Shown here: positions 7,689-23,006 of the stretch, piece by piece
How the letters are laid out: each line of letters begins with the position of its first letter
Position numbering within the stretch: position 1 is the stretch's first letter
Source of the DNA: Magnetococcales bacterium
Lineage (GTDB): Bacteria > Pseudomonadota > Magnetococcia > Magnetococcales > Magnetaquicoccaceae
Direction of reading: 5' to 3'
Assembly (NCBI GenBank): GCA_015231915.1
Contig: JADGAR010000001.1
Coordinates: 1 to 55,183, forward strand
DNA: 55,183 bases
The notes under the pieces: generated by a model
The model's input: the letters and a program-made list of their open reading frames with translations, nothing else
The model's database searches: none
What the model was told of the DNA's origin: nothing
Made by a program: the position numbers and the translations under genes

Positions 7689-7813
7689 GCGAGGATACTC
7701 CTGGTGCGAGTTGGCAAAAGGCATGACCCATGCGTATTGCAAACGATATTATCTCTTCTCATTGACGGATGCGTCAATCGGAAATCGGCCCATCACAAAA
7801 AGGAAGACATCGC

Positions 7814-8527
7814 GTGAATGCCCTGGAAATAACGAATGTAAGCCTGCGCCTCGACCAACGCCCGGTGCTGGAGCAGGTGTCGTTGACCATCCCGGCGGGC
7901 AGTTTCTTCGGTCTGGCGGGAGGCAACGGGGCCGGCAAAACCACCCTGCTCAAATGCATCCTGGACCTCGGTCGCCCGGATCAGGGCGCCATCACGATCT
8001 TCGGTGTGCCCTCCACCGTGGATGCGGCCCGGCAGGGCGTGGCCTATCTGCCGGAACGGTTTCTCCCCCCGCCCTATCTGACCGGCGAGGAGTTTCTCTC
8101 CAGCCTGCTGAGGCTGCATGGCGCGCCGGTCACCCGCAAGGGAGTGGAACAGACCCTGATCGACCTGGACATGGACCCCGCTGCCCTGCGCAAACCGATC
8201 CGCACGCTCTCCAAGGGCATGACCCAGAAACTGGGCCTGGCAGGCTGCCTGGCCAGCGGCAAACCGATCCTTTTGCTGGACGAACCCACCTCCGGCCTCG
8301 ATCCCGTGGCCCGGTCGCTTCTGAAGAACCAACTGCTGCGCCTCAGGGAACAAGGCGCCACGGTGTTCATCAACACCCACATCCTCAGCGACGTGGAGCG
8401 ACTGTGCGACGCCATGGCCATTCTCCACCAGGGACGCCTCCGCTTTCACGGCAGCCCCGCCGCCTGTCTGGACCGGTTCGGCGGTCCCTCCCTGGAAGAA
8501 GCCTATCTCCAGGCGGTCGCCGGGTGA
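7814..8527 (+). CDS. ABC transporter ATP-binding protein
   Basis: 237 residues. Walker A GGNGAGKTT (about residues 36-44), signature LSKGMTQKLGLA in place of LSGGQ, Walker B PILLLDEPTSGLD and the switch His in INTHILSDVERL. The Q-loop region reads YLPERF, a variant typical of the CcmA/NatA group of ABC-2 type exporters. The start is GTG with AAGGAAG just before it. No permease gene is adjacent: upstream is the divergent GGDEF gene and downstream a hybrid kinase, so the membrane partner must be elsewhere. Confidence 0.87.
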   Translation: MNALEITNVSLRLDQRPVLEQVSLTIPAGSFFGLAGGNGAGKTTLLKCILDLGRPDQGAITIFGVPSTVDAARQGVAYLPERFLPPPYLTGEEFLSSLLRLHGAPVTRKGVEQTLIDLDMDPAALRKPIRTLSKGMTQKLGLAGCLASGKPILLLDEPTSGLDPVARSLLKNQLLRLREQGATVFINTHILSDVERLCDAMAILHQGRLRFHGSPAACLDRFGGPSLEEAYLQAVAG

Positions 8528-8593
8528 GCCATGGGCAACGGTTTTTTGTAAAAATCATTGGCGTTAGGGCACCAAATCGGATATATAAACCGA

Positions 8594-11011
8594 ATGAGCG
8601 CCTACTCTTCCTCCCTGCCCACACCGGAAGCCTTTCTCCAGATGACCCGTCATCTGGAAGAAGGCATGTACATTCTGGACGCGGCAGGCAACCTGCTCTT
8701 TGTCAACGAAGTGGCGGAACGCCTGCTGGGCTGGAACCAGGCGGAACTGCTGGGCAGGAATCCCCACGGGATCTTTCACTACCAGAACGCCAGCGGCGAT
8801 TGCGTGCCGGTGGAAGCCTGCCCGATCCTGGCCAGCGTCCAACGGGGCGAGACCTTCCGCTCCCAGGAGGATGTCTTCACCCACCGGGACGGCCACATGA
8901 TCCCGATCTCCCTGATCGCCTTCCCCATCCTTGAAGAAGGACGCATCACCGGCAGCTTCACCCTGTTCACGGATCTCAACCGGCGCCGGCAGTGGGAACG
9001 GGATGTCCGGCAGGCCCGGGACATCGCCATGGAGACCGCACGCCTGAAATCGGAATTCCTGGCCAACATGAGCCACGAAATCCGCACCCCCATCAACGGC
9101 GTGATCGGCATGGCCGATCTGCTGCTGGACACCAAGATCAACAAGGAACAACGGGAACTGGCCACCACGCTCCGGGAGTCGGCCCAGGCGCTGCTGACCA
9201 TCGTGAACGACATCCTCGACTTCACCAACCTCGAGGCGGGCCGCCTGGAGAGCGCGGCGATGCCCTTCAATCCCCTGAAGGTGGTGGAGGAGGTGGCGGA
9301 ACTGATGGCCTCCCAGGCCCAGCAAAAAAATCTCGATCTGCTCACCGATGTCAGCCCCAAGCTGCCGAGCATCCTGCTCGGCAATCCGGCGCGTCTGCGT
9401 CAGGTGCTGTTGAACCTGGTGGGCAATGCGGTCAAATTCACCCGCAAGGGGGAAGTGGTCATTCAGGCCCGGCTGACGGAAAAACTGCACCCCCCCCTGG
9501 TGGTGCGGTTTTCGGTGACCGACACCGGGATCGGGATTCCCAAGACCGCGATGCATCGGGTGTTTCAGCCCTTCACCCAGGTGGACGGCTCCAGCACGCG
9601 CGCCTTCGGGGGGATGGGACTGGGGCTGTCCATCGCCAACCGCCTGGTGGAACTGATGGGCGGCGAAATGGGCATGAGCAGCCGGCGTGGCAAAGGGTCC
9701 ACCTTCTGGTTCACGGTCCCCTTCCCCGTCGCCTCCCAGAACGAGGCAACGGCCACCGTCCCCCTGACCCCGACCCAGCTGAAAGGCATCAAGGCCCTGG
9801 TGGTGGACCCCAGACAGACCAGCCAGACCATTCTGCTCAATCACCTGCTGAACTGGAACATGAAATGCGCTGCGGTGGAAAACCCGGCGGAAGCACTGGT
9901 CCATCTCAAACACGAGGCACAGGCCGGGGCGCCTTGCGACATCCTGCTGCTGGCGGCCACCCCCATCCCCCTGGAGGAGTGCATGGCGCTGGGCCGCAAC
10001 ATCACCGACGATCCGGAACTCCCCCCCATCGGGCTGGTGCTCATCACCGGGATGCACGAAAAAAATGCGTTCGAGGAGGCCCGCAAGGCCGGTTTCGTTG
10101 CGCATCTGACCAAACCCCTGCACCGGCATCAACTGCTGGATTGCCTGCTGGCGCTCCTCAACCCGGCGCCGCCCCAGGAACAGGATGCCACGCCTGCGGA
10201 GAACGTCCAGCAACCGGCCATCGTCGCCCGCCCCACGCCGCCGCCCCACGCCGAGGAACGACCGGAACGCCTCATTCTGCTGGCCGAGGACAACGCCGTC
10301 AACCAGAAGGTGGCGCAAATGCAGATCAGCCGCCTGGGCTATGCGGTGCATACCGTGGCCAACGGCAAGGAGGCGATCCACGCCCTGCAATCCGGCGCCT
10401 ATGCCCTGGTGCTCATGGACTGCCAGATGCCCATCCTGGACGGTCTCCAGGCCAGCCACGCCATCCGGCAGCAGGAGAGCGCGGAAGGTCGTCCCCGCAC
10501 CCCGATCATCGCCCTCACCGCCAACCCCCAGCCAGACGACGTGCAGCGCTGTCTGGCCCACGGCATGGACGACACCCTCAACAAGCCGATCCGCATCGAG
10601 GACCTGGCGGAAAAACTGGATCAATGGCTCCCCGGACGCCAACCCGCCGCCCCGCTCCCGGATGGCGCCGAGACCCAGGCAAGCCCGCCCATCTCCCTGG
10701 AACAGTTGAAGAACAGCTTCGGCTCGGATCCCAAGGTGCTCATGGAATTCATCGACACCTATCTGTCCAGCGCTTCGCTGATCATTGCAAAATTGAAGAA
10801 AAACCTTAAGATCAAGGATGCGGCGCTCGTGGGGGAGAATGCCCATGAACTCAAAGGCGCCAGCGCCAACCTGGGCGCCAACGGCATGCATCACCTCTGT
10901 GTGCAACTCCAGGAAGCGGCCAGGGGGAGCGACCTGGGACAGTGCCGTGCGCTGATCGATCAGATTCAAAAGGAATACCGCCGATGCGAGAGCTTCATCA
11001 AGAAAGCGTGA
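8594..11011 (+). CDS. Hybrid sensor histidine kinase: PAS-HisKA-HATPase-REC-REC-Hpt
   Basis: 805 residues, cytosolic because no membrane segment is seen. PAS domain about 10-130. HisKA with SHEIRTPINGVIGMADLLL, phospho-His at 161. HATPase with GNAVKFT, DTGIGIP and GMGLGLSI. The first receiver domain (about 395-520) is degenerate: the phosphoacceptor site reads LLLAATPIP, with no Asp. The second receiver is canonical (AEDN, Asp609 in LMDCQMPILDG, and NKPI). The C-terminal Hpt has HELKGASANLGA, His751. This is a BarA-like internal phosphorelay that needs a separate response regulator, none of which is in the window. It is followed by a coupled small gene and an Hsp70-like ATPase. Confidence 0.92.
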   Translation: MSAYSSSLPTPEAFLQMTRHLEEGMYILDAAGNLLFVNEVAERLLGWNQAELLGRNPHGIFHYQNASGDCVPVEACPILASVQRGETFRSQEDVFTHRDGHMIPISLIAFPILEEGRITGSFTLFTDLNRRRQWERDVRQARDIAMETARLKSEFLANMSHEIRTPINGVIGMADLLLDTKINKEQRELATTLRESAQALLTIVNDILDFTNLEAGRLESAAMPFNPLKVVEEVAELMASQAQQKNLDLLTDVSPKLPSILLGNPARLRQVLLNLVGNAVKFTRKGEVVIQARLTEKLHPPLVVRFSVTDTGIGIPKTAMHRVFQPFTQVDGSSTRAFGGMGLGLSIANRLVELMGGEMGMSSRRGKGSTFWFTVPFPVASQNEATATVPLTPTQLKGIKALVVDPRQTSQTILLNHLLNWNMKCAAVENPAEALVHLKHEAQAGAPCDILLLAATPIPLEECMALGRNITDDPELPPIGLVLITGMHEKNAFEEARKAGFVAHLTKPLHRHQLLDCLLALLNPAPPQEQDATPAENVQQPAIVARPTPPPHAEERPERLILLAEDNAVNQKVAQMQISRLGYAVHTVANGKEAIHALQSGAYALVLMDCQMPILDGLQASHAIRQQESAEGRPRTPIIALTANPQPDDVQRCLAHGMDDTLNKPIRIEDLAEKLDQWLPGRQPAAPLPDGAETQASPPISLEQLKNSFGSDPKVLMEFIDTYLSSASLIIAKLKKNLKIKDAALVGENAHELKGASANLGANGMHHLCVQLQEAARGSDLGQCRALIDQIQKEYRRCESFIKKA

Positions 11012-11394
11012 CACCCATCCCCCACGAGGAGCGCCTCCAGCGTTGGCTGGCCATCGCCAAGGAACGGTTTCCGGAACAGTTGGCCGCCCATCTGGATCCC
11101 CACCCGGCGCGCTGGGTTGCGGTCACCGAAAACGGCCCGCAAGAAGACCGGCAACGCTGCACCGCCTATCTGCGCGATCCCCTCGATCTCCCCTATTGGG
11201 CCTTCGTTCTGGCCAAGAGCTACCTGGACGACGTGGGCGAATGGCCCCTGTTCGGCATGTTCGTGGAACAGGCCCTGAACCAATGGGAAGAACATGGCGA
11301 TCCCCAACGCGCGGTTCGGGAGATCCTCGCGCAGGTCAAGCCGGTCTGGTCCGATCTGGATGTCATCCATGTGGGCGAGGAAGCAGCGGAATAA
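11008..11394 (+). CDS. Hypothetical protein coupled to the hybrid kinase
   Basis: About 128 residues, soluble and acidic, rich in Trp and Pro (PYWAFVLAKSYLDD, PLFGMFVEQAL). I do not recognise the family. The GTG at 11008 overlaps the kinase stop as GTGA, a typical coupling; an in-frame ATG at 10984 would overlap by 28 bases. It lies between the kinase and the Hsp70-like gene with no room for a separate promoter, so the three may form one unit, perhaps as signalling partner or adaptor (inference). Confidence 0.65.
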   Translation: MTPIPHEERLQRWLAIAKERFPEQLAAHLDPHPARWVAVTENGPQEDRQRCTAYLRDPLDLPYWAFVLAKSYLDDVGEWPLFGMFVEQALNQWEEHGDPQRAVREILAQVKPVWSDLDVIHVGEEAAE

Positions 11395-11442
11395 CGCCAT
11401 GACCGATCTTTCCATCCAAACGCCACGCCATTGGAGTCCTCC

Positions 11443-14325
11443 ATGAAGGTTCACAGCATACGTCTGCGCGAAAACAAGCTGCTCCCCCGCCAGTCCGCCG
11501 AAGTGGACCCGCTGGCCCGCAAACGGCTCAGGGAGCTGCGCGCGGAAATCATTGCGCTGCTCAGCCGGCAACGGTTCATCTCCTTCATCAAGCAACCGAA
11601 ACTCCATTTTGACAATCAGCTCAACTGCCTGTGGCTGCTGCACGAGTTCCTCACCACCCCGGAGCAGATGTTTCAGCATGTGGCGCGGCTGCAAATCTAC
11701 GCCTTTCGTCACTGGGAAGTCCCCTCCATGGAGGCGCTGCGTTCCATGGCCCGCGAGGATCTCATTCGCAGTCACGAAAAATTCCGCCGGGCCACGCTGC
11801 TCTCCTCGGACCCGGTCCCGAACGGCAAGGGTTACCGGACCATCACCATCGGCGGGGGGAGCGAAAACGACGCCACCACCGCCGAGCATCTGGTGCTTCC
11901 CATGCATCGGGTGGCGCAACGGGACATTTTCGCCTTCATTTTGAGCCACGGCCTGATCCCCCGTGACATCGAAGGGGTGGGCGAGAAGATGCACGAACTC
12001 TATCGCCTGACCAAGGAACTGAATCAACAGCAACGCACGGCCCAACCCGCATCGCCCCTCTCCCAGGATGCCCTGCGCAGTCGTCTGCTGGAAGGGGACT
12101 GGATGCGCGCCCGCCTGCCGATTCTGGAACCCTCCTGCCTGACCGACATGGAAAAAGGGGTCTGGGAGCTGTATCAACCCACCGTGCCCACGGGCAAGGG
12201 TTGGGTCGAACTGGCCCTGGACCCGCCGTGGGAGGCGCGCAACCCGGAAATGGACGTGCGCAAGGGGGTGATCGCCATCGACTTCGGCACCAGTTCCACG
12301 GTGGTGGCCTGCCGGGAGGACGGCAAGACCTCGCTGTTGCGGGTGGGGATGTCCGATTTCTACCGCAAGCCCGTGCCTGCGGACTACCAGAACCCGACGA
12401 TTCTGGAATTCGTCAATCTGCCGCGCTTTTTGAGCGCCTGGACCAGCGAGGCCCATCAGCCCATGACCCGCTGGGAGGATTTCCACTTTTCCCACGAGGC
12501 CCTCAAGAACTTCCGGGAGAACGAAGGGAATCAGCGCATCGTGGCCAGCCTGCTGACCAACATCAAGCAATGGCCCCTCACCCCGCCGGAATACCGCAAC
12601 CGGCGCATCACGGACCAGACGAGCGGCATGGAGGTGGAAATCCGCGCCACGGACGCCCCGATGCCGGTACGCGGTCAACCCATTGCGGTCTCCTGGGAGG
12701 ATCCCTTCGATCCCATCGAGCTGTACGCCTATTATCTTGGCCTGTTCATCAACCATCGGGCCAACGGGTTGTTTCTGGAGTATTACATGACCTTTCCGGT
12801 GACCTATCCCCGTGAGGTCAAGCGTTCGCTTTTGACGGCCTTTTCCCGCGGACTGATGCGCAGCCTGCCGGAAACCCTGATGCTGAGTCCGCTCATGGAG
12901 CGTTTTCACGTGCGGGAGGAGGCGTCCGAACCGGCGGCCTACGCCGCGTGCGCCCTGGAGGAGTTGGCCATTCCGGCCACCACCGATGGGACGGCCTACG
13001 CGGTGTTCGACTTCGGCGGCGGGAGCACGGATTTCGATTTCGGACTGTACCGCAGCCCCACGCACCAGGAGGTGGCACAGGGCTACGAACGGGTGATCGA
13101 GCGGTTCGGGGCCAGCGGCGACATGTATCTGGGCGGCGAAAACCTGGTGGCCAATCTGGCCTATCTGGCCTTCCAGCAGAATCTGGATCTGTGCCGGGAG
13201 CATCAGATTCCGTTCACGCTGCCGCCGGAGGCGGAGCGGTTTCCCGGACACGAGATGTTTCTGGACAACTCGCACGTGGCGCAGACCAACACGGCTTTGT
13301 TGACGGCCAAGGTCCGCCCCTTGTGGGAGAACTTCCGCTGGGATCTGGAGCCGATGCCGGGCGCCGCTCCCGGAGAGAAGAAGCCCGCACGGCGGCAAAC
13401 GGACCGGATTGCCGATGCCTTGAGCGAGTACCTGACCGGGACGGACTTCACGCTGCTGGCCGGGACGCAGACGATTCGCGCGCCGGACAACATCCTGGAG
13501 GTTGCGGTGGAGTTCTTGAACCGCAACCGGGAGAAGGTGCCGGTGACCATGCGGATCGATCGGGACGGGATCAATCATTTTCTGGTGCGGCGCGTGGGTC
13601 AGGGGATTCACCGGTTTTTCGTGGCGATGAAGCAGGCGTTTGCAGATCGCGGGGTCGTGCCCGAGGAGGTGCATGTGCTGCAGGCCGGCAACGCGAGCCG
13701 CGCCCTGCTGGTCCAGGCGTTGTTCGCGGCCTTGCTGCAACAGAAGATGTTCAAGTGGACGCCGCCGCCGGAGGGGGTCTTGAAGAATCTGGCCCTGGAG
13801 GAGATTCAGCACTCGGTGGCGTTCGAGCATTTCATCGTGCATCGTCCGCCGGTGGGGGATCCGGAGAACCCGTACCGACCGACGGCCAAGACCGGGGTGG
13901 CCATCGGGCTGCTGAAGCTGATCCCCGGCGAGAGTCTGCTGGCCATCAGCGCCACGCCTGCCGGGGAGCACGACGAGGCGCCGTTCCGGCTGTTCGTGGG
14001 TCGTTTGCATCAGGGGGTTTTCCAGCCGGTTTTGACCCAGAACGGGGCCTATCGGGAGTGGCGGGAGGTCGGCGTGCCGACGCGTGGAACCTTTGTGTTG
14101 CTCTACTCCTCGTCGCCGTTGGCCGGGCTGGGGACGTTGCCGCGCGGGGCGCAGGAGTTGCGGGAGAAGAGTCTGTTCTTTGGTCCTGGTCTGGTGAAGG
14201 AGAAGCGTCTGTACATTCAGGCCGTGGCCACGACGGAGGTGGAGTTGTGTCTGGCCGACTCTTTGGAGCAGATTCTGTTGCGACCGGAGGATGTGTTGCA
14301 CCGGATGCGTGTGACGTTGCAGTAG
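11443..14325 (+). CDS. Large Hsp70/actin-like ATPase with a novel N-terminal extension
   Basis: 960 residues, far longer than DnaK. The first 275 residues are a helical, charged extension that I do not recognise. The ATPase core follows: phosphate-1 motif IAIDFGTSSTVVA (Asp280), phosphate-2 motif VFDFGGGSTDFDFG (Asp523) and an adenosine-site segment VHVLQAGNASRALL. There is no DnaK-like EEVD tail and no dnaJ or grpE gene nearby; the part after about residue 790 is unlike the DnaK substrate domain. GGAG six bases before the ATG at 11443 sets the start, and a TTG at 11431 is less likely. It probably belongs with the kinase and small gene upstream. Function unknown; a regulatory chaperone or cytoskeletal-type ATPase is possible. 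Confidence 0.82.
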   Translation: MKVHSIRLRENKLLPRQSAEVDPLARKRLRELRAEIIALLSRQRFISFIKQPKLHFDNQLNCLWLLHEFLTTPEQMFQHVARLQIYAFRHWEVPSMEALRSMAREDLIRSHEKFRRATLLSSDPVPNGKGYRTITIGGGSENDATTAEHLVLPMHRVAQRDIFAFILSHGLIPRDIEGVGEKMHELYRLTKELNQQQRTAQPASPLSQDALRSRLLEGDWMRARLPILEPSCLTDMEKGVWELYQPTVPTGKGWVELALDPPWEARNPEMDVRKGVIAIDFGTSSTVVACREDGKTSLLRVGMSDFYRKPVPADYQNPTILEFVNLPRFLSAWTSEAHQPMTRWEDFHFSHEALKNFRENEGNQRIVASLLTNIKQWPLTPPEYRNRRITDQTSGMEVEIRATDAPMPVRGQPIAVSWEDPFDPIELYAYYLGLFINHRANGLFLEYYMTFPVTYPREVKRSLLTAFSRGLMRSLPETLMLSPLMERFHVREEASEPAAYAACALEELAIPATTDGTAYAVFDFGGGSTDFDFGLYRSPTHQEVAQGYERVIERFGASGDMYLGGENLVANLAYLAFQQNLDLCREHQIPFTLPPEAERFPGHEMFLDNSHVAQTNTALLTAKVRPLWENFRWDLEPMPGAAPGEKKPARRQTDRIADALSEYLTGTDFTLLAGTQTIRAPDNILEVAVEFLNRNREKVPVTMRIDRDGINHFLVRRVGQGIHRFFVAMKQAFADRGVVPEEVHVLQAGNASRALLVQALFAALLQQKMFKWTPPPEGVLKNLALEEIQHSVAFEHFIVHRPPVGDPENPYRPTAKTGVAIGLLKLIPGESLLAISATPAGEHDEAPFRLFVGRLHQGVFQPVLTQNGAYREWREVGVPTRGTFVLLYSSSPLAGLGTLPRGAQELREKSLFFGPGLVKEKRLYIQAVATTEVELCLADSLEQILLRPEDVLHRMRVTLQ

Positions 14326-14329
14326 GGAT

Positions 14330-15007
14330 TCATGCCGGCAGGGCCTTGATGTTGCTGAGCTGGTCGAGGGTCCCCAGCAGCAGGAGGCGGTGCTCGGCGA
14401 GCAGCAGGGTATCCGGCGGTGGGTTGAGGAGGATTTTTTCCCCGGTATTGCGTGCGGTCGGGGGGATGCGCAGACCGATGAGGCTGACGCCGAAGCGGGT
14501 ACGCAGTGTCAAGCCGCTCAGGGTATGTCCTGCGAAGGGTGCCGGGCAGGGGATTTCGATCATGGCGACGTTGAAGCCGAGGGGGATGCGTTCCGCCAGG
14601 TCGGGATGGAGGAGTTTGTTGGCGATGCGTGTTGCCATGTCCCGTTGCGGAAAGATGACCTCGGTGGTGCCGAAGGTCCGGATGGCGTCGCCCTGATTGT
14701 CGCTGTCCACCTGGACGAGGATGCGCGCCACGCCACGTTTATGGAGTGCGTGGGTTGCCAAGACGGTGACATCGAAATGTTTGCGGATGGCCACGATGGC
14801 GCAATCCACATCGAAGGCGCCGATGCTTTCCATGGCCTCGTCGTCGAGGGCGTCGCAGCAGACGGCACGGCTCACCTCGTCGCGGACCACGGCGACCCTC
14901 TCCTCGTCGCGATCCACCGCCAGGACCCTTGCCCCGCCTTCACTCAGCGCCCTGGCCGCCTGTCTGCCGAAGGTTCCCAGTCCCACTACCAGAAAATGGT
15001 TTGCCAT
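14330..15007 (-). CDS. ktrA: KtrA/TrkA-type potassium channel regulatory subunit
   Basis: 225 residues. RCK_N domain with the nucleotide-binding VVGLGTFGRQAARAL, then AVDRDEERV and the acidic DALDDEAM; the C-terminal RCK_C half (about 135-225) has FAGHTLSGLTLRTRFGVSLIGL. It binds adenine nucleotide on the cytoplasmic face and gates a KtrB pore. The matching membrane subunit is not adjacent but about 22 kb away (36608-37981). The stop converges with the Hsp70-like gene at a 4-base gap. MANHFLVVG is the natural family start. Confidence 0.85.
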   Translation of the reverse strand: MANHFLVVGLGTFGRQAARALSEGGARVLAVDRDEERVAVVRDEVSRAVCCDALDDEAMESIGAFDVDCAIVAIRKHFDVTVLATHALHKRGVARILVQVDSDNQGDAIRTFGTTEVIFPQRDMATRIANKLLHPDLAERIPLGFNVAMIEIPCPAPFAGHTLSGLTLRTRFGVSLIGLRIPPTARNTGEKILLNPPPDTLLLAEHRLLLLGTLDQLSNIKALPA

Positions 15008-15339
15008 GGTTGTTGTCCCAACGGTCGAGATGAGATCTTGATCGCGCAAGGCGCATGATGGTGACAGTGTAGAACACCCCCGCGCCCAGGAAAAGGGGCA
15101 CTCGCAGAGAAGACAATGCGCGATGCATATTCATCCCTGCAGATAACCGCCGCTACTTCTATATTTTATTGTTTTTGCATTAAAATTTATACATATCAAT
15201 ATTATTTTCGATAAAATTATAACTTAAGACAAAAAAAAGAAAAAAAACGTCTTGCAATATATTTTTTTCGACTTAAAATACGCATTCCAGTTAGCAGGAG
15301 ACCACAAAAGACCAGGGAAGCAGTCGGCATGGATTCGTG
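15008..15339. other. Intergenic, AT-rich boundary of the island
   Basis: 332 bases between the divergent ktrA and DMT exporter genes. The first 120 bases have ordinary GC-rich composition. From about 15160 the sequence becomes runs of A and T (15170-15275), marking the left edge of the AT-rich island. I see no gene, tRNA or inverted repeat of note; promoters for both genes should lie here. Confidence 0.6.
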
Positions 15340-16206
15340 ATGAACGTACCAGAAATTGCTCTCAACAATCATATACTTGCCATTGCGAGCGCCTTCTTTG
15401 GGGCGTTGTCGAATCTGCTTGCCAAGACCATATTGCAGGATGTGACGGCCAAGGACATCCTTGGGGTCAATTTTCTGATCATGACAGGAATCATGTCGCT
15501 TTTGTCTCCGGCGTTTTTTGAGATCAAAGGATCCTTGAAAATTGTTATCCCTCTCGTCTTACTGATCTCCGTTGTTGATTTTTTTGCCAATTATTTTTTC
15601 TTTAAATCCTTTGAAAAAAGCGATGTATCGGTCGTCACGCCGATGTTGGCGCTGGCCCCTGGCTTTACCTTCTTATTTGCCTGGTTGTTGTTGGGGGAAT
15701 CGGTGACATGGATGCAGTTGATCCTGTCGATTGGGGTGGTGGCTGGGATCGTGGCGTTTTCGGCGGATTTTTCCAAATTGCGGGAGTCATTGAACAACAC
15801 GTTATTGCCGGCACTCACGGCATCCCTGTTGTTCGGTTTTTCGGCCATACCCAGCAAGTATCTTTTATCGAACGGTCTCATGAACGCCCCCACCTTGTAT
15901 GAACTGCGAGGAGCGATCATCGGCTTGAGCGCCATTTTGATCTTCGGTGCCGGGATCAATCAACTGACGGCCAATCATTTCCGGAAAATCCTGGTGCGGG
16001 GGATTGTCGTCATTGTGCAGTGGCTGCTGCTTTACCTGGCACTCACCAACGGAAAATCTGGGGTGACCTACACTCTGGGCAACATCACACCAATATTTGT
16101 ATTTTTATTAGGAATACTCTTTCTAAACGAAAAAATCACTACAAAAAAATTAGCCGCCGCACTGTCTGTTATTATTTTATCATTACTGGTAATCAAGCCA
16201 TCATAA
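15340..16206 (+). CDS. EamA/DMT-superfamily transporter
   Basis: 288 residues with about ten hydrophobic helices in two EamA-like halves, the second starting near GFSAIPSKYLLS. Features of the family are ASAFFGALSNLLAK in the first helix, SVVTPMLALAPGFTFLFAWLLLGE, and at the end GNITPIFVFLLGILFLNEKIT. Members export amino acids or other small metabolites, or import nucleotide sugars. The ATG at 15340 directly follows an in-frame GTG; ribosome-site evidence is weak. It heads an AT-rich co-directional gene group whose other products act on aspartate-type substrates, so export of an amino-acid-derived compound is a reasonable guess. Confidence 0.8.
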   Translation: MNVPEIALNNHILAIASAFFGALSNLLAKTILQDVTAKDILGVNFLIMTGIMSLLSPAFFEIKGSLKIVIPLVLLISVVDFFANYFFFKSFEKSDVSVVTPMLALAPGFTFLFAWLLLGESVTWMQLILSIGVVAGIVAFSADFSKLRESLNNTLLPALTASLLFGFSAIPSKYLLSNGLMNAPTLYELRGAIIGLSAILIFGAGINQLTANHFRKILVRGIVVIVQWLLLYLALTNGKSGVTYTLGNITPIFVFLLGILFLNEKITTKKLAAALSVIILSLLVIKPS

Positions 16207-16235
16207 AGATTCTATAATACGGAGACAAGAAAAAA

Positions 16236-17747
16236 ATGTCTGAATTTATTGACAATATATTTAAAAACAAAACAGAAAATCATGTGAAAATGCAAATTCT
16301 GTTTCTCGATATCGTTGCCTACTCGAAAAGAAACACCGCGAGACAATTTGAACTCATTCAATCTTTTCAAAAAATTGTCAGAGATGCGCTCCATGAAATC
16401 CAGGGTCAAAATTTGGAGCCATTCAAAAAACGCAATTTTGACATGCAAACAGATACCATTCTTCTGCCAACCGGGGACGGGTTGGCAATCGGCATTCCGT
16501 ATCATGAAATCACAGAACTGGCACTCGAGCTTGCACTCGCAATCCTGCAAAAAGTCTCCAGACACAACTCTAGGCCAGCGTGCAAATCGTTTAAAAACGA
16601 CCATTGGTGCAACTGCCATAATAAATTTACCCTTAGATGTGGCATTCACTCAGGAAACATCGTCTTGTATCGCGACCTGTTCAGCGATCGATTCAACCTG
16701 GCAGGAAGTGTCATCAATCTGGCCTCCCGCATCATGAATGCAGCCGGCCCCAACCAAATTTTTCTACACCCCCATATCTACGCAGAAATTATCGATGCTA
16801 AAATAAGCTTTCCAAAAGATCATTTTCATGAATACGACAAAATAATCATAAAGCATGGCGAATCGATTGCCGCCTATCAATATATAAAGCCAAGATCACC
16901 AGGCCTCAATACTGACATAAACCAGGAAAAAAATTCATCCATTTTGAACGACGCCAAGCCAGCACAACCCACTCCCCAGGCCAGGCCGCGCACAAAGCCT
17001 GCACCCAACAGGAATCGACAACCACCCAACATTGCCGCATTGGAACAAAGAATGGTGCATGTGCCGAAGGCATCATTTATAATGGGAATTGGGTCGCAAA
17101 AACAATCCCAAGTATACCTGACCCGTCCATTTGCAATCGATCCTTATCTTGTCACCCAAGAATTTTATCAAGAGATCACCGGCACAAATCCGAGTTGCTT
17201 TACAGGAACCAGGCTCCTGCCCGTTGACAGCGTCTCGTGGATGGATGCAGTCCAATTTTGCAACAAACTTTCTGCAATTGCTGGCTACACACCCGTCTAT
17301 CAATTCGACGGCAATAATTTTATTTCCGACATCAAACAAAACGGCTTTCGTCTGCCCACGGAAGCGGAATGGGAATACTGCTGCTGGGGCTGCAGCAAGG
17401 GCGTCATCCCACCCCAGGCGACTGATGCCATCGCATGGTTCATGCGCAATTCCCAACAAACCACACATCCTGTAGGCACGAAAGAACCCAACCCATGCGG
17501 CTTGTATGACATGCTTGGCAATTTATGGGAATGGTGTCACGACTGGTTTGCACCCGACCTTGCGACATCTCCGGCCAACGACCCGTCAGGTCCCCCTGAC
17601 GGTCTGGAGCGGGTGTTGCGGGGCGGATCCTGGATTGATATTGAAAAAGTGCTGACACCAATCTATCGCAACCGCACAACACCAAGAACGGGGAAAAAGA
17701 CATTCGGATTCCGTATTGTCCGAACGTTAGATCACGACAACACCTGA
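16236..17747 (+). CDS. Class III nucleotidyl cyclase fused to an FGE/SUMF1-like domain
   Basis: 503 residues. The N-terminal half (about 15-225) is a class III adenylate/guanylate cyclase domain: FLDIVAYSKR and TGDGLAIGI supply the two metal-binding Asp, and FNLAGSVINLASRI the transition-state Asn and Arg. A Pro-rich linker (about 240-268) joins it to an FGE-sulfatase (SUMF1/EgtB fold) domain with PKASFIMGIG, FRLPTEAEWEY, GLYDMLGNLWEW, VLRGGSW and FGFRIVR. Where SUMF1 has its copper-binding Cys pair after GGSF, this protein reads GGSWIDIEKVL, so formylglycine chemistry is unlikely; it may be a ligand-binding or redesigned enzyme. The gene is AT-rich and starts 29 bases after the exporter. Confidence 0.85.
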   Translation: MSEFIDNIFKNKTENHVKMQILFLDIVAYSKRNTARQFELIQSFQKIVRDALHEIQGQNLEPFKKRNFDMQTDTILLPTGDGLAIGIPYHEITELALELALAILQKVSRHNSRPACKSFKNDHWCNCHNKFTLRCGIHSGNIVLYRDLFSDRFNLAGSVINLASRIMNAAGPNQIFLHPHIYAEIIDAKISFPKDHFHEYDKIIIKHGESIAAYQYIKPRSPGLNTDINQEKNSSILNDAKPAQPTPQARPRTKPAPNRNRQPPNIAALEQRMVHVPKASFIMGIGSQKQSQVYLTRPFAIDPYLVTQEFYQEITGTNPSCFTGTRLLPVDSVSWMDAVQFCNKLSAIAGYTPVYQFDGNNFISDIKQNGFRLPTEAEWEYCCWGCSKGVIPPQATDAIAWFMRNSQQTTHPVGTKEPNPCGLYDMLGNLWEWCHDWFAPDLATSPANDPSGPPDGLERVLRGGSWIDIEKVLTPIYRNRTTPRTGKKTFGFRIVRTLDHDNT

Positions 17748-17766
17748 GAACCTAATGGAGCGCAAA

Positions 17767-18879
17767 ATGCCTAAAAAATATAGAATTCATCTCATCACAA
17801 CCGGAGGCACCATTGCCGGACAGGTCGCATCCGACAAACAAGATGAAAGCATGAAGCGTAGCGCGGGTGACTTCGCCGCCCTGATTTCTCCTACCCTCGA
17901 CTATTTAAACAGGCACCATGATCTTGAAATTGATCTGTCAACTCATGAAATTGCAGACAAAGACAGCTCAAATATAAAGCCAGATGATTGGATAAAACTT
18001 GTAAATCATATTAAAAGCGAATACAATAAACATGAAGCATTCATCATCACGCACGGCACAAATACTTTAGGCTATACATGTGCCGCTCTTTCGTTTGCAA
18101 TCGCCAACCCCGCCAAACCCATTCTGCTGACGGGATCACAGGTTGCTGCGGGCTTACCCGGGTCCGATGCATTGACCAATCTGGAAAACGCCTTGAGGCT
18201 GGCGGCATGGCCGCGCGAAACAAACCCGATCAAAGGGGTCATGGCCATATTCGGCAGCCACATTATTACGGGAACACGGGTAAAAAAAGATACGGAGTTT
18301 GATTACGATGCGTTCAAATCTTTCAGCGTTGGCAGCATTGGACGTATCGGTCGTATTATCAATATCGAAGAAAGAAACCTGCAAAAACATTTAAGCTATC
18401 TTAAGACAGGACTGTATCCTGAAGCCAAGACAGCAGAACAACTAGTATGCGAAAACGAATTCGACATGCGCATCGTTTCCCTGACCGAATTTCCTGGCAT
18501 GTCCTCCGATCTATTCAAAAGTCTTGTCGAAAAAAATGATATTCAAGGCTTTATTCTCCGCGCATTTGGTGCCGGCGATCCATGCATGGACCACGCACGA
18601 GCATTTGAATACCTGCAAGGAAGAGGGATACCTATTGTTGTAACAACCCAAGCGCCAAATGGTAACAGCAATTTCCAGGTCAACGACCCTGGAAAACTGT
18701 TGCGAGACAAAAATCTGGCCATCCCTGCCTATGATATGAGCATTGAATCCATGACCACAAAATTAGCATGGCTGCTTGCAAAAAAGAGCAAAGGTGAGAT
18801 CACCTACAAAAATCTATGCACTGAGATGGTGCATGATATTCGCGGTGAAATTAACGTACTTTGGGAAGTAGGAGCTTGA
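17767..18879 (+). CDS. Asparaginase-family protein with Asp-to-Asn at the catalytic HGTDT motif
   Basis: 370 residues of the bacterial L-asparaginase/amidotransferase fold. The first catalytic Thr is in TTGGTIAG. The second motif, HGTDT in active enzymes, reads HGTNT (codons CAC GGC ACA AAT ACT), so the catalytic Asp of the Thr-Lys-Asp triad is Asn. The Lys is probably kept in GTRVKKDT. No signal peptide. GGAG six bases upstream sets the ATG at 17767, 19 bases after the cyclase-FGE stop. It may be an asparagine-binding or altered amidase enzyme; true asparaginase activity is uncertain. The downstream racemase-fold gene supports an Asp/Asn-related pathway. Confidence 0.85.
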   Translation: MPKKYRIHLITTGGTIAGQVASDKQDESMKRSAGDFAALISPTLDYLNRHHDLEIDLSTHEIADKDSSNIKPDDWIKLVNHIKSEYNKHEAFIITHGTNTLGYTCAALSFAIANPAKPILLTGSQVAAGLPGSDALTNLENALRLAAWPRETNPIKGVMAIFGSHIITGTRVKKDTEFDYDAFKSFSVGSIGRIGRIINIEERNLQKHLSYLKTGLYPEAKTAEQLVCENEFDMRIVSLTEFPGMSSDLFKSLVEKNDIQGFILRAFGAGDPCMDHARAFEYLQGRGIPIVVTTQAPNGNSNFQVNDPGKLLRDKNLAIPAYDMSIESMTTKLAWLLAKKSKGEITYKNLCTEMVHDIRGEINVLWEVGA

Positions 18880-18927
18880 TGATACGCAACAGCTACACAA
18901 AAGTACGACAGCCATGAGCATAAAACC

Positions 18928-20295
18928 ATGAATATCAAACCCATCAACCCAGGCATCACCCCCCCTGCACCGCCAGAAAGGGTGGCCAGGACAGTACAAC
19001 TCCTGCAGAAACTGGGTGTATGGCATATTGTCAGCATCAACTCACCTGCCACCAGTTGCCGGGATGCGGCGCAACGCCGCTACCGGCTTGGCAACACGGG
19101 AATCCCTTTGCATGACGAGGTCAAATCCCTGCATATGGTTGGCCATTATGCCGATGGTCAGACCCGTCACATCCTGCTGCATGCCCGCGCCCATTGTCAA
19201 TTCGATCTGGACGCAGCACGCAAAATCGTGGGGGCAATCAGGCTGGAGCGGTTGTCACCAGAGGAACTGGCGCAGTGCTGCGGGGCACGGTATGGAACGG
19301 TCAACCCCTTCAGCGAAGCGGAACGCTGGATCCAGATCTTTGACAAAGGCATGCTGACGCGCTATCTGACGCCGCACACCATGATAACCAACGCCGGGGA
19401 TTTGAATTGGGCTGTAGAGTTCCATCCACGAGACATGATTGCTGCACTACAAAAAGTTTCGCAGCAAGTAAAAATTGCTGATATTGCTGTGCAAATCAAA
19501 CAAATTCCAAGACAACTACCTGTTTTCGGCATTCTGACAGGCAATGGTCCTGACAGCGGACAACTGCTCTGGAGACTGCTCAATGCAAAAATCAGTCAGG
19601 CATTGGGTGAAAAAAAAAGGTTCCTTGGCGACCTCTCCTATCCGCGCGTCGTGATTGACTCCACACCGGAAATGGGACTTTCCATGGAACTGCAAGAGCG
19701 CTGCCGTGATGTGGAAAAGATCGTATGCGATGGCGTTGATAATCTATTGAAGGCAGGTGCCACCCATATCGCCATCGCATGCAACACGACCCCCTATTTT
19801 CAACACATATTAAAAGAAAAATGTAACAAAAATAATGCAAAATTTATATCTATCGTTGACACAGTGATTGAATATATTAAAAATAACAACATGTCTGAAC
19901 TTACCTTAATGGCAATTCCGAAAGTTGCAGAAATGGGAGAATTCAGTGCTTACGCCCCATTAAAAAATCATGGCGTTTCGCCAATGGACCCAAAAGCAGA
20001 ACAAACACTGCAAGAATTAGGATATATGATAAAAAATATAGGGTCTAACAGCGAGTTAAACAAGGAAAGAAATAAACTAATTCATGCGACAAGAATTGGA
20101 GCAAAAACAAAAACAGTATTAATAGCATTAACAGAAATTTCTGTTTTACTTGAACGCTTTCGCCAGCATGGGCAAAAAAATTTTGCTGAAAAACAAATAG
20201 TTGATACGCTCGAAATCTATGCAAGCCATTTAGCGAATTATTATTTAAACGTTTTAATTCACGATGAAAATCTTGAGCAAGAAATTTGGGAATAA
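18928..20295 (+). CDS. Fusion of a YbaK-type aminoacyl-tRNA editing domain and an Asp/Glu racemase domain
   Basis: 455 residues. Residues about 20-190 match the YbaK/INS editing domain: an EVKSLHMVG strand carrying the family Lys, AHCQFDLDAARKIVGA, SPEELAQCCGARYGTVNPF and the late WAVEFHPRDMI. Such domains hydrolyse mischarged tRNA. Residues about 205-450 match Asp/Glu racemases: FGILTGNGPDSG, VVIDSTPEMG, ACNTTPYF with the first catalytic Cys, and VDTLEIYASHL near the end. The second catalytic Cys, normally in GCTE, is replaced (LIALTEIS). A one-Cys enzyme may be a different lyase or isomerase, or use a single base. It follows the asparaginase-like gene by 48 bases. Confidence 0.8.
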   Translation: MNIKPINPGITPPAPPERVARTVQLLQKLGVWHIVSINSPATSCRDAAQRRYRLGNTGIPLHDEVKSLHMVGHYADGQTRHILLHARAHCQFDLDAARKIVGAIRLERLSPEELAQCCGARYGTVNPFSEAERWIQIFDKGMLTRYLTPHTMITNAGDLNWAVEFHPRDMIAALQKVSQQVKIADIAVQIKQIPRQLPVFGILTGNGPDSGQLLWRLLNAKISQALGEKKRFLGDLSYPRVVIDSTPEMGLSMELQERCRDVEKIVCDGVDNLLKAGATHIAIACNTTPYFQHILKEKCNKNNAKFISIVDTVIEYIKNNNMSELTLMAIPKVAEMGEFSAYAPLKNHGVSPMDPKAEQTLQELGYMIKNIGSNSELNKERNKLIHATRIGAKTKTVLIALTEISVLLERFRQHGQKNFAEKQIVDTLEIYASHLANYYLNVLIHDENLEQEIWE

Positions 20296-20316
20296 CATGA
20301 AACTATCTATAATGAA

Positions 20317-20713
20317 ATGGCTAGCCTATCAAATTTATCAAACAAATCATTTCTCAAAAATTTTAATATAGACATATTTTCTTGCCATAATAAAAATAAT
20401 CATAAAGATATTCTCTAAACCATCTCGCAATATTCAAAACAATTTATTGTTTGACAGATTTCTTTTCAAATTTTCAGAACACCAGGAAATAATCTTTATA
20501 TGCGATAAAAATGATATTCAAAATCCCGGCTTTTGCGCAAAACTCGGCGCGGCCAGTGCGCTTGGAAAGCCAATTTATGCGATCTTGGCGCAGAACCTGA
20601 ACGAGGAGGAATTAAACCACCTCCCCATCCCTTTACAAAATCGTGTCCGCATCGATAAAAAAATCAAACTAGAGACATTAATAACAAAAATATATGAAAA
20701 ATTTAATCAATAA
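20317..20713 (+). pseudogene. Possible frameshifted nucleoside deoxyribosyltransferase/TIR-like small gene
   Basis: Two adjoining very AT-rich frames. Frame A runs from the ATG at 20317 (MASLSNLSNKSF...) to a TAA at 20416-20418. Frame B is open from 20372 to 20713 and only has a TTG start at 20447. Joined near 20410-20420 they would give about 130 residues ending in EIIFICDKNDIQNPGFCAKL and AASALGKPIYAI. The latter resembles the nucleotide-binding C-terminal part of nucleoside 2-deoxyribosyltransferase-like and related domains (D..NPGF..E.G.A.ALGKP). Frame B alone would be an 88-residue protein. I cannot tell a true frameshift from a short real gene. Confidence 0.4.
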
Positions 20714-20723
20714 ATAATCGATC

Positions 20724-21120
20724 ATCACTCCTGCGCCATCAGCGTGCGGATCAGGGCGCTGGTCACGGCGCACCAGCCTTTGCCGATGTTGTGCGGATTA
20801 TATCCGCCGCCGCCAACCGCCAAAAGACGACCATGGCCCAACTCCTTGGCCATGGTGACAAAACACCCCGTCCCCATGATGAGCATCGATATCGATATAG
20901 GCCACACGCCGAATGTCGTACTCCTTACGCAGCGAGCGGATCACCGCCCCGATGCCGTTGAAAACACAAAATCCCCCGGCACGCTCCGGACAAGCGTGAT
21001 ACAAACCGGCAATCGGCACGAAAGCACGCCGGCACCCGCCGGACATAATAGGCACCCAAGCGAAACGTCCCGAAGGGATGTCCGTCGGGAAATCCGTATC
21101 CCGCGATTTCCGGACCAATG
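20724..21120 (-). pseudogene. Decayed duplicate of the histone-deacetylase-family gene
   Basis: Three blocks match the intact gene at 22035-23006 in order and orientation: 20724-20859 to 22034-22169 (4 mismatches in 136), 20860-21049 to 22481-22670 (about 14 in 190) and 21048-21120 to 22902-22974 (3 in 73). Two internal deletions of 311 and about 233 bases, neither a multiple of three, remove the middle of the deacetylase, and the first codons are also missing. The product cannot be functional. The left end coincides with the end of the AT-rich island; the right end is followed by a toxin-antitoxin pair. Confidence 0.9.
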
Positions 21121-21145
21121 CACCCCCGGCGGACTGCACTTCGGG

Positions 21146-21661
21146 TTACGAATCAGCAAACAGTCTTCGCAGAGAACGCACCGGCAGCCACAAAGTCAAG
21201 GGTTGGTCGGGCAGACAGGTAAAATCATAGCGCGCATAAAAGGACCGCACCTGTTCGTGTTTGGCGTCGATCACCACCGCCACCAGGCCCACGTCATTCG
21301 CAACCCGCAGACATCGAAAAAGGGCGTCCATCAACAGATGTTCCCCCAGTCCCTGGCCCTGCACCGTTTGATCAACTGCCAACCGTGCCACACGTACCAC
21401 AGGGAGGGGAAACGATGGAAACCGTTTGGCATGCTCCGGCGAAAGGTGAATTCTTGCGATACTACCCACGGTCAATGCGTGATATCCCAACACCCGTTCT
21501 GGCTGGGCATCGCACACCGCCACAAAAACGCGAGCCACCCCCGACTCCTGGTGCTGCCGGGCATATAAACCCAAATAATGATCCAGATCTGGTTCCCCAC
21601 ACACGAACCGCTTCCTCTGGTGGTGACGCGCCAAAGGCTCGATACGCCAATCAGGCAACAT
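21146..21661 (-). CDS. GNAT acetyltransferase toxin (TacT-like)
   Basis: About 171 residues. GNAT core: RVARLAVDQTVQGQGLGEHLL provides the V/A strand and the acetyl-CoA pyrophosphate loop QGQGLG, followed by DALFRCL and SFYARYDF. Together with the DUF1778 gene upstream this is the standard type II module in which the toxin acetylates charged tRNA and blocks translation. The ATG at 21661 overlaps the antitoxin stop by 11 bases; an upstream in-frame ATG at 21724 would extend far into the antitoxin gene and is less likely. Confidence 0.85.
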   Translation of the reverse strand: MLPDWRIEPLARHHQRKRFVCGEPDLDHYLGLYARQHQESGVARVFVAVCDAQPERVLGYHALTVGSIARIHLSPEHAKRFPSFPLPVVRVARLAVDQTVQGQGLGEHLLMDALFRCLRVANDVGLVAVVIDAKHEQVRSFYARYDFTCLPDQPLTLWLPVRSLRRLFADS

Positions 21662-21953
21662 CGCTTTGCCGTTTGAGATAGGTTTGAGCCGCTTCTTGCA
21701 ACCGTGGGCCGGGTGGGTCGTCACGATCCAAAACGGCGAGGAAAACCTGCCAATCTTGTGGCGTAAGGGTGATCACCTCATGTTCCGCCAGAATTGCCTT
21801 GGCCCTGTCCGATGCGGCGGAAACCAAAAAACCGGAAACGGACATCCCCGCCAAGGAAGCTGCCCGAGCCAGCATGCTTTTCAGCTCCGTCGTGACGCGC
21901 AAATCAATGCGTTCGTTTCGTGGTGTTGTGATCGCATGGTTCATCGTGGTCAT
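21651..21953 (-). CDS. DUF1778 ribbon-helix-helix antitoxin (TacA-like)
   Basis: 100 residues. NERIDLRVTTELKSMLARAASLAGMSVSGFL is a ribbon-helix-helix DNA-binding segment; the C-terminal TPQDWQVFLAVLDRDDPPGPRL is the part that wraps the toxin in DUF1778 antitoxins. AAGGGG eight bases before the ATG at 21953 fixes the start over other in-frame ATGs at 21959 and 21983. It precedes and overlaps the GNAT toxin gene, and such antitoxins repress their own operon. The pair sits between the deacetylase fossil and the intact copy. Confidence 0.87.
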   Translation of the reverse strand: MTTMNHAITTPRNERIDLRVTTELKSMLARAASLAGMSVSGFLVSAASDRAKAILAEHEVITLTPQDWQVFLAVLDRDDPPGPRLQEAAQTYLKRQSDVA

Positions 21954-22034
21954 TGACATACCCCTTATTGAATATGCTGACAATTTCTATTGACATCACG
22001 ACTGGTTGCTCACGCAATCTTGAAAATTGGCCAA

Positions 22035-23006
22035 TCACTCCTGCGCCATCGGCGTGCGGATCAGGGCGCTGGTCACGGCGCACCAGCCTTTGCCGATGTT
22101 GTGCGGATTGTATCCGCCGCCGCCAACCGCCAGAAGACGACCATGGCCCAACTCCTCGGCCATGGTGACGAGACGCGCGGCGACCTGACCGTGCAGCGTC
22201 GCGGAGAGACGCAACTGGGTCAACGGGTCGCCGGCAATGGAATCGGCGCCACACTGGAGAATGAAAAACTCCGGCTCGGCCTCCTGCAAAAACCGGATCC
22301 CCTGGGGCCAGCGCTGCATGAAATGCACATCCCCGGCGCCAGGAGGCATCGGCACGTTCAACTTGGTGCCCAACGCGGCACCTTCCCCGGACTCCGACGC
22401 ATCGCCGGTGCCAGGGTACAACGTGCGACCATCCTGATGATAATCCAAAAATCGCACATCGGGATCGGTCTCGAAGGCATAAAACACCCCGTCCCCATGA
22501 TGGGCATCGATATCGATGTAGGCCACGCGCCGAATGTCGTACTCCTGACGCAGCGAGCGGATCACCACCCCGATGTCGTTGAAAACACAAAATCCCCCGG
22601 CACGCTCCGGACGGGCATGATGCAAACCGGCAATCGGCACGAAGGCACGCCGACATCCGCCGGACATGATGGAACGCATCGCCGCCAACGCCGATCCCAC
22701 CACATGGGCAGCCGCTTCGTATACCCCACGATAGGCGGGGGTGTCCCCGTAATCCAGATAACCGGCCCCGCTCACGGATTGCTCACGCACTTTGCGCACA
22801 TACTCCGGTGTGTGAAACCGCAACAACTCCTCCTCCAGGGCCAAAACAGGCCGGTCCACCCGCACCTGCCGGTCCAGCCCCTGCACCTGGGCCTCGTCCC
22901 AATAGGCACCCATGCGAAATGTCCCGAAGGGATGGCCGTCGGGAAATCCGTATCCCGCGATTTCCGGACCAATGGTGACCGAAACAACCGGAGAGACAGT
23001 GCTCAT
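22035..23006 (-). CDS. Histone deacetylase-family protein (acetoin utilisation/AcuC-like)
   Basis: 323 residues, single zinc-hydrolase domain of the HDAC/arginase superfamily. Motifs: HHARPERAGGFCVFNDIGV with the catalytic His pair, YIDIDAHHGDGV with zinc ligands, QCGADSIAGDPL and VGGGGYNPHNIGKGW. Members deacetylate acetyl-lysine, acetylpolyamines or similar amides; the substrate here is not known. It lies 21 bases downstream of rquA in the same direction. A truncated second copy is at 20724-21120. Confidence 0.88.
   Translation of the reverse strand: MSTVSPVVSVTIGPEIAGYGFPDGHPFGTFRMGAYWDEAQVQGLDRQVRVDRPVLALEEELLRFHTPEYVRKVREQSVSGAGYLDYGDTPAYRGVYEAAAHVVGSALAAMRSIMSGGCRRAFVPIAGLHHARPERAGGFCVFNDIGVVIRSLRQEYDIRRVAYIDIDAHHGDGVFYAFETDPDVRFLDYHQDGRTLYPGTGDASESGEGAALGTKLNVPMPPGAGDVHFMQRWPQGIRFLQEAEPEFFILQCGADSIAGDPLTQLRLSATLHGQVAARLVTMAEELGHGRLLAVGGGGYNPHNIGKGWCAVTSALIRTPMAQE

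Follow-up and report, generated by a model that had tools for sequence, protein, structure and literature searches.

The window, that is, the whole stretch of 55,183 nucleotides of a Magnetococcales genome analysed here, contains an AT-rich island that carries four intact genes in one shared direction and one gene relic. The GC content was 0.441 at 15150-20713 and 0.622 in the remaining window (GC profile and direct computation), so the foreign composition claimed for this island in the original prediction was borne out. The features are as follows (types A and B are defined below).

15150-20713, forward strand: AT-rich island with operon, GC 0.441.
15337..16206, forward strand: EamA/DMT-family transporter, probable exporter (Pfam EamA, 1.9e-27).
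16236..17747, forward strand: class III nucleotide cyclase fused to an FGE/FGS (C-type-lectin-like) domain (PF00211 Guanylate_cyc, 1.4e-6; PF03781 FGE-sulfatase, 1.3e-37).
17755..18879, forward strand: asparaginase of the type-A clade (type I/GatD-like) with HGTN for HGTD (PF00710, 2.1e-43; PF17763, 1.6e-18).
18928..20295, forward strand: YR, a YbaK-type aminoacyl-tRNA-editing domain joined to an Asp/Glu-racemase-like domain that retains a single catalytic Cys of two (Pfam and predicted structure).
20296..20713, forward strand: relic of a TIR-type gene, C-terminal frame at about 20372-20713, coding similarity at about 20402-20713 (79% identity to the C-terminal ORF of G001).

Pfam agreed with the DMT exporter, the class III cyclase-FGE fusion and the asparaginase that had been read from the sequence; for the claimed YbaK-Asp/Glu racemase fusion, tRNA_edit was recovered by Pfam and both halves by predicted fold. 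The stop-to-start gaps of the intact genes are 29, 7 and 48 bases. The earlier range of 19-48 bases is correct if the later ATG at 17767 is taken as the asparaginase start, which gives 29, 19 and 48; otherwise the gap of 7 falls outside it.

On the 5' side, the TrkA gene (window 14330-15049) adjoins an Hsp70-like gene and the island, and in other genus members TrkA lies beside a TrkH-like gene (L068-L070; TrkH by eye). Because the neighbours of TrkA differ between the window and these genomes, the region around it has been rearranged. When an empty site was sought within the genus, the other genomes proved to have a different gene environment around TrkA, and the opposite flank was not found in them. 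Just 3' of the island, at 20724-21983, lies a shortened, mosaic copy of a histone-deacetylase-like gene, with blocks 93-96% identical to 22034-22974. A TacA-type antitoxin gene and a GNAT gene lie between both copies; G001 has neither.

All five genes, with their order kept, were also found in G001 (L011, same genus) and G042 (L012, same order) by tblastn against the relatives' loci. The neighbours, whose recurrence had been offered as a check, are thus adjacent in two other Magnetococcales genomes and not always scattered. The five genes had been taken as the unit, and this part did not stand: the set is not invariant, and its constant core is the asparaginase and YR. In a scan of GTDB contigs for YR, a single-protein query gave zero loci and an alignment query gave 11, namely three in Magnetococcales and one each in Sulfurovum, Saprospiraceae, another Bacteroidetes, Aminicenantes, Blastocatellia, Solibacteraceae, another Acidobacteriota and a "Deltaproteobacteria" genome (G403). 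G403 may be placed by GTDB in Acidobacteriota, because its phylum sample repeats the genomes sampled for the phylum of the Solibacteraceae genome. The YR loci span at least four phyla. The asparaginase gene lies immediately 5' of YR in 13/13 loci with readable upstream sequence; L032, which begins at a contig end, was left out of this count. L032 (Saprospiraceae) also has, at 6414-11262, a ThsB-like TIR gene, a protein with TIR and SLOG (LD_cluster2) domains and an apparent trypsin-like protein near YR.

Within Magnetococcales, YR occurs in 6/48 genomes, from four families, and asparaginase (alignments of AAA_35-asparaginases and type-A asparaginases as queries, cut-off E<=1e-20) occurs in exactly the same six (p = 8e-8, which presumes independent genomes, and those of Magnetococcales are not fully independent). 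The other 42 genomes gave zero asparaginase at E<=1e-20, and the order seems to have no housekeeping asparaginase. One of the six, G036, has one more asparaginase elsewhere (L135). At L135:6367-9055 and 11367-13126 (G036 contig 11), a GatA-like amidase gene overlaps this stand-alone asparaginase gene, with a TIR-like gene close by (amidase and TIR by eye).

Centre genomes aside, full-length YR was found neither in the sampled Pseudomonadota outside Magnetococcales nor in the samples of the phylum of the Solibacteraceae genome (G404), Bacteroidota (G400) and Campylobacterota (G398). YR had no match in viral contigs or phage records; the type-A asparaginase had none in viral contigs and met only distant asparaginases in phage records. 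The plasmid search with YR returned only stand-alone racemases, on two plasmids, and a phage or plasmid origin was rejected on these results. Across the sampled genomes, the putative core system is widespread but rare.

The loci fall into two configurations, in which the core is joined by one of two exchangeable front ends that use nucleotides.

Type A (the window, L011, L012, L031 and L036): one HGTN asparaginase, with a cyclase-FGS protein or, in L036, a KAP NTPase-FGS protein.
Type B (L013, L014, L015, L033, L035 and L037; L034 and L038 partial): an HTH-ATPase-like protein, an AAA_35-asparaginase (B1), a second asparaginase (B2) and YR.

Four of the five type-A loci carry an EamA gene, and none was found in the readable type-B sequence. 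L031 has neither front end next to its asparaginase; downstream are genes for a membrane protein (weak DUF6879), EamA and GNAT. In type B, the B2 asparaginase bears a C-terminal extension, and the first gene matches HTH and ATPase families weakly, with significance in some loci only. The asparaginase tree resolves A, B1 and B2 as one clade each. The six YR proteins of Magnetococcales, which belong to both types, group in a single clade of the YR tree (100/99). A tree constrained to unite the type-A YR proteins was rejected (AU p 0.00015 with five rows and 0.0008 without L031); the YR of L036 is a long branch, and its exact position is unsure. Front ends have therefore moved with their asparaginases between YR backbones, and this speaks for the two configurations being versions of a single system.

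When the window and G001 were compared at the same chromosomal site, dS was 0.16-0.36 in flanking genes and 0.83-3.5 in the four island genes (values above 1 are approximate only), and dN/dS of the four island genes was 0.02-0.21. Such high dS in genes under purifying selection suggests that functional copies were acquired independently or replaced the resident alleles, and speaks against a decaying remnant. The horizontal gain that had been proposed is supported by this contrast between island and flanks in sister species.

Studies have shown that EamA-family carriers include amino-acid exporters (PMC11005379). The EamA protein of the window is 91%, 71% and 50% identical to those of G001, G042 and the Sulfurovum locus L031, respectively, and its gene has a dN/dS of 0.06 (window vs G001). 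The cyclase-FGS protein is proposed as the sensor and switch. In its cyclase domain, the metal-binding D25 and D81 and the N161/R165 pair are invariant in three homologues, with the positions assigned partly by eye, and its FGS domain shares 40% identity with the FGS domain of the KAP NTPase-FGS protein in L036. Among the island proteins it has the lowest amino-acid identity (about 61-63%, window vs G001), as a recognition module might show. The active-site Cys pair of formylglycine-generating enzymes follows, as we assume, the motif RGGS; at this position the window reads RGGSWIDIEKVLTPIYRNR, with zero Cys. Because the pair is absent, we believe that the FGS domain is probably a binding domain. 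A diversity-generating retroelement acting on the FGS domain was considered and rejected, as the genome itself holds no template-like second copy of the 3' end of the gene.

The asparaginase of the window scored below curated cut-offs (NCBIfam asnASE_I 205.0 vs 260.5; GatD 159.3 vs 324), and its dN/dS is 0.02 (vs G001). HGTN replaces the catalytic HGTD in all five type-A asparaginases; the type-B asparaginases with a readable motif keep HGTD, except B1 of L033, which has SGTD. The active-site Thr and Lys are retained in the type-A asparaginases, and the change of Asp to Asn may indicate an altered substrate.

For YR, the Pfam match to tRNA_edit/YbaK (7.5e-7) was above the cut-off and that to Asp_Glu_race (1.4e-5) below it. 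In the predicted structure (pLDDT 79), the N-terminal half has the Cys-tRNAPro deacylase fold (Foldseek 1dbu, E 5.6e-9, TMt 0.84) and the C-terminal half the Asp/Glu racemase fold (Foldseek best match 5ell, E 7.3e-10). All 13 YR homologues have Leu in place of the second racemase Cys; at the position of the first, 11 have Cys and 2 have Asp. Because the second Cys is replaced throughout, two-base racemisation of the ordinary kind by YR is unlikely. The catalytic pair of the Asp/Glu racemase EcL-DER (5ell) is likewise unbalanced, Thr83/Cys197 (PMC12661438). YR resembles EcL-DER in its C-terminal fold and in this imbalance; however, it loses the second Cys and not the first, and YR alone is fused to YbaK. 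The theme of aspartate, asparagine and aminoacyl-tRNA that had been suggested for these enzymes is supported. The nearest stand-alone racemase-like relative is in L114 (Campylobacterota). L114:7432-17120 contains a Na/Ala symporter, a racemase with both Cys, an MmgE/PrpD-family protein, an asparaginase N-domain gene and two aspartase/fumarase-family lyases, and this locus is a possible route for N-substituted aspartates.

The fifth gene is intact in G042 (L012:5140-6255), where it encodes 371 aa and overlaps the end of YR (TIR_2, 4e-6, 27.8 bits vs a curated cut-off of 28). In G001 (L011) it is split into two ORFs, and the window keeps only about 110 C-terminal codons. This series identifies the fifth gene as a decayed and dispensable gene of TIR type. 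The Glu of FCAEL in the G042 protein is Lys in both same-genus copies (window and G001); the predicted model of the TIR-type protein (pLDDT 41) is too poor for fold reading. TIR and deoxyribosyltransferase domains have a common fold, and this explains why the frame had earlier been read as a broken deoxyribosyltransferase; that identity was dropped, since the match on the relic has an E of only 0.19 and the relatives are TIR-like.

Since the TIR gene was lost and the exporter and the core stay under selection, we favour detoxification over an anti-phage role. The genes and their core association are shown, as are the swaps of modules, the YR folds and the missing Cys; from these we infer the substrate, gating, export and biological use of the module as follows. 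With a probability of roughly 0.4, the module responds to a signal, acts both on an Asp/Asn-type amino acid and on tRNA carrying that amino acid, and most likely serves to detoxify a D-form or an antimetabolite or to confer immunity to it. A threat or metabolite would be sensed by the front end, which is cyclase-FGS or KAP NTPase-FGS in type A and HTH-ATPase with AAA_35-asparaginase in type B; the front end would then switch on the core, whose target would be an Asp/Asn-type amino acid, most likely a D-form or an antimetabolite analogue. The asparaginase would hydrolyse the amide of this amino acid, the YbaK half of YR would remove the wrong residue from mischarged tRNA, and the racemase-like half would bind the Asp-like moiety, or process it via its single Cys where present. 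The EamA carrier of type A would export the amino acid or the product, and the net outcome would be detoxification of, or immunity to, the target. This logic would be akin to that of trans-editing deacylase and transporter pairs against toxic amino acids, with NTPase or cyclic-nucleotide control added; FthB/FthC (PMC7162832, PMC11295145), CtdA (PMC10018355) and the amino-acid exporters of the EamA family (PMC11005379) set precedents for it.

In favour of detoxification, we count the 13/13 adjacency, the six-genome co-occurrence, the front-end swaps, the YR folds and the purifying selection on EamA. We also count D-amino-acid-transaminase-family genes beside four type-B loci (L013, L014, L015 and, as a partial ORF, L033) and a D-amino-acid-oxidase-like gene 3' of YR in L036; the transaminase at the three Magnetococcales type-B loci could reflect one ancestral neighbourhood. 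In L035, racemase-like motifs were read by eye in an ORF no more than about 2 kb away (zero Pfam match). Against detoxification stand the type-B loci without EamA in readable sequence, L031 without either front end, and the AAA_35-asparaginase fusion, which resembles effector architecture and fits suicide of the infected cell. In that alternative, infection would be sensed by the NTPase or cyclase front end; the activated asparaginase, in type B fused to the AAA_35 NTPase, would deplete asparagine and YbaK would strip aminoacyl-tRNA, so that translation stops and phage spread is halted, with TIR, PLD-like or membrane proteins as accessory effectors. AAA_35/KAP NTPases, cyclase, FGS and TIR domains belong to the repertoire of conflict systems (PMC7159879, PMC8195603), the system is sporadic and was exchanged between sister species at one site, and several loci have defence-type neighbours (TIR proteins, Schlafen, M.Eco57I-like methylase, TacA-GNAT). 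However, the island proteins have zero PADLOC match, the searches gave no tie to phages, viral contigs or plasmids, and the exporter and the D-amino-acid genes fit poorly. The TIR gene is also split or a relic in two same-genus genomes, with Glu changed to Lys in FCAEL, and the other genes are under purifying selection. The anti-phage role, in which growth would be arrested, is the chief alternative, and we consider it doubtful.

The enzyme content also suggests plain catabolism of D-/L-Asn and Asp under a local regulator, as asparaginase, racemase-like and D-amino-acid enzymes are present and the stand-alone relative in L114 lies among aspartate-catabolism-like genes. The AAA_35-asparaginase fusion, the conserved tRNA-editing fold, the racemase Cys loss and the swapped signalling front ends are not catabolic features, and we regard catabolism as very improbable. 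Production of a modified Asp/Asn-derived amino acid, exported by EamA with YbaK as self-resistance, is improbable. The EamA and YbaK arrangement resembles the fluorothreonine locus (PMC7162832), and L031 has a GNAT gene after EamA, but the operon has no committed enzyme (ligase, carboxylase or synthetase), type B has no exporter, and the front ends are NTPases and sensors.

The single domains all belong to known families; what is new is their combination and the conserved core. PADLOC families gave no match at E<=1 for the five window proteins, and no description of the asparaginase and YR set was found in the open-licence literature, to which the searches were confined. The gene set is thus apparently undescribed, in line with the original prediction. 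If our reading of detoxification is true, a single switched module would edit an Asp/Asn-type amino acid in its free form as well as its charged tRNA. Trans-editing would then be tied to D-amino-acid metabolism and to NTPase/cyclase signalling, and a defined gene pair is on offer for testing. It is tentatively conceivable that this is a new system of immunity or stress response: the asparaginase, gated by an NTPase or a cyclic nucleotide, and YR, which would strip tRNA, would together control one amino acid in its free pool and on charged tRNA.

Several known systems share parts of this arrangement. Pycsar combines a class III cyclase with a TIR or TM effector (PMC11224242), and the G042 operon likewise holds a class III cyclase gene and a TIR gene; here, in contrast, the asparaginase and YR are constant, the TIR gene is dispensable, and no cyclic-nucleotide-binding domain was seen on the TIR partner. 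The NTPase-dependent conflict systems of Kaur et al. (PMC7159879, PMC8195603) have FGS and cNMP-cyclase domains, NTPases and modular swapping in common with these loci, but the words asparagin-, racemase and YbaK are absent from both papers, and an output of the proposed kind is not mentioned in them. As for the VMAP ternary system, Pfam matched none of the operon genes to vWA, MoxR or VMAP. CtdA is a stand-alone tRNA-editing gene beside canavanine degradation operons (PMC10018355). In both cases a tRNA-editing gene adjoins enzymes, which for CtdA break down the toxic amino acid; CtdA, however, is a B3/4-type editing protein for an arginine analogue and has no signalling front end. FthB/FthC is the fluorothreonine self-resistance pair, with an INS-superfamily deacylase (PMC7162832, PMC11295145). 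In both systems a trans-editing protein of the YbaK/ProXp superfamily is encoded with a transporter, a pairing of trans-editing-type and exporter genes seen here in 4/5 type-A loci and not in readable type-B loci. In contrast, FthB/FthC has no asparaginase, racemase-like fusion, NTPase or cyclase and lies within a biosynthetic locus. If the module serves antimetabolite resistance, it joins the FthB/FthC kind and forms no separate category.
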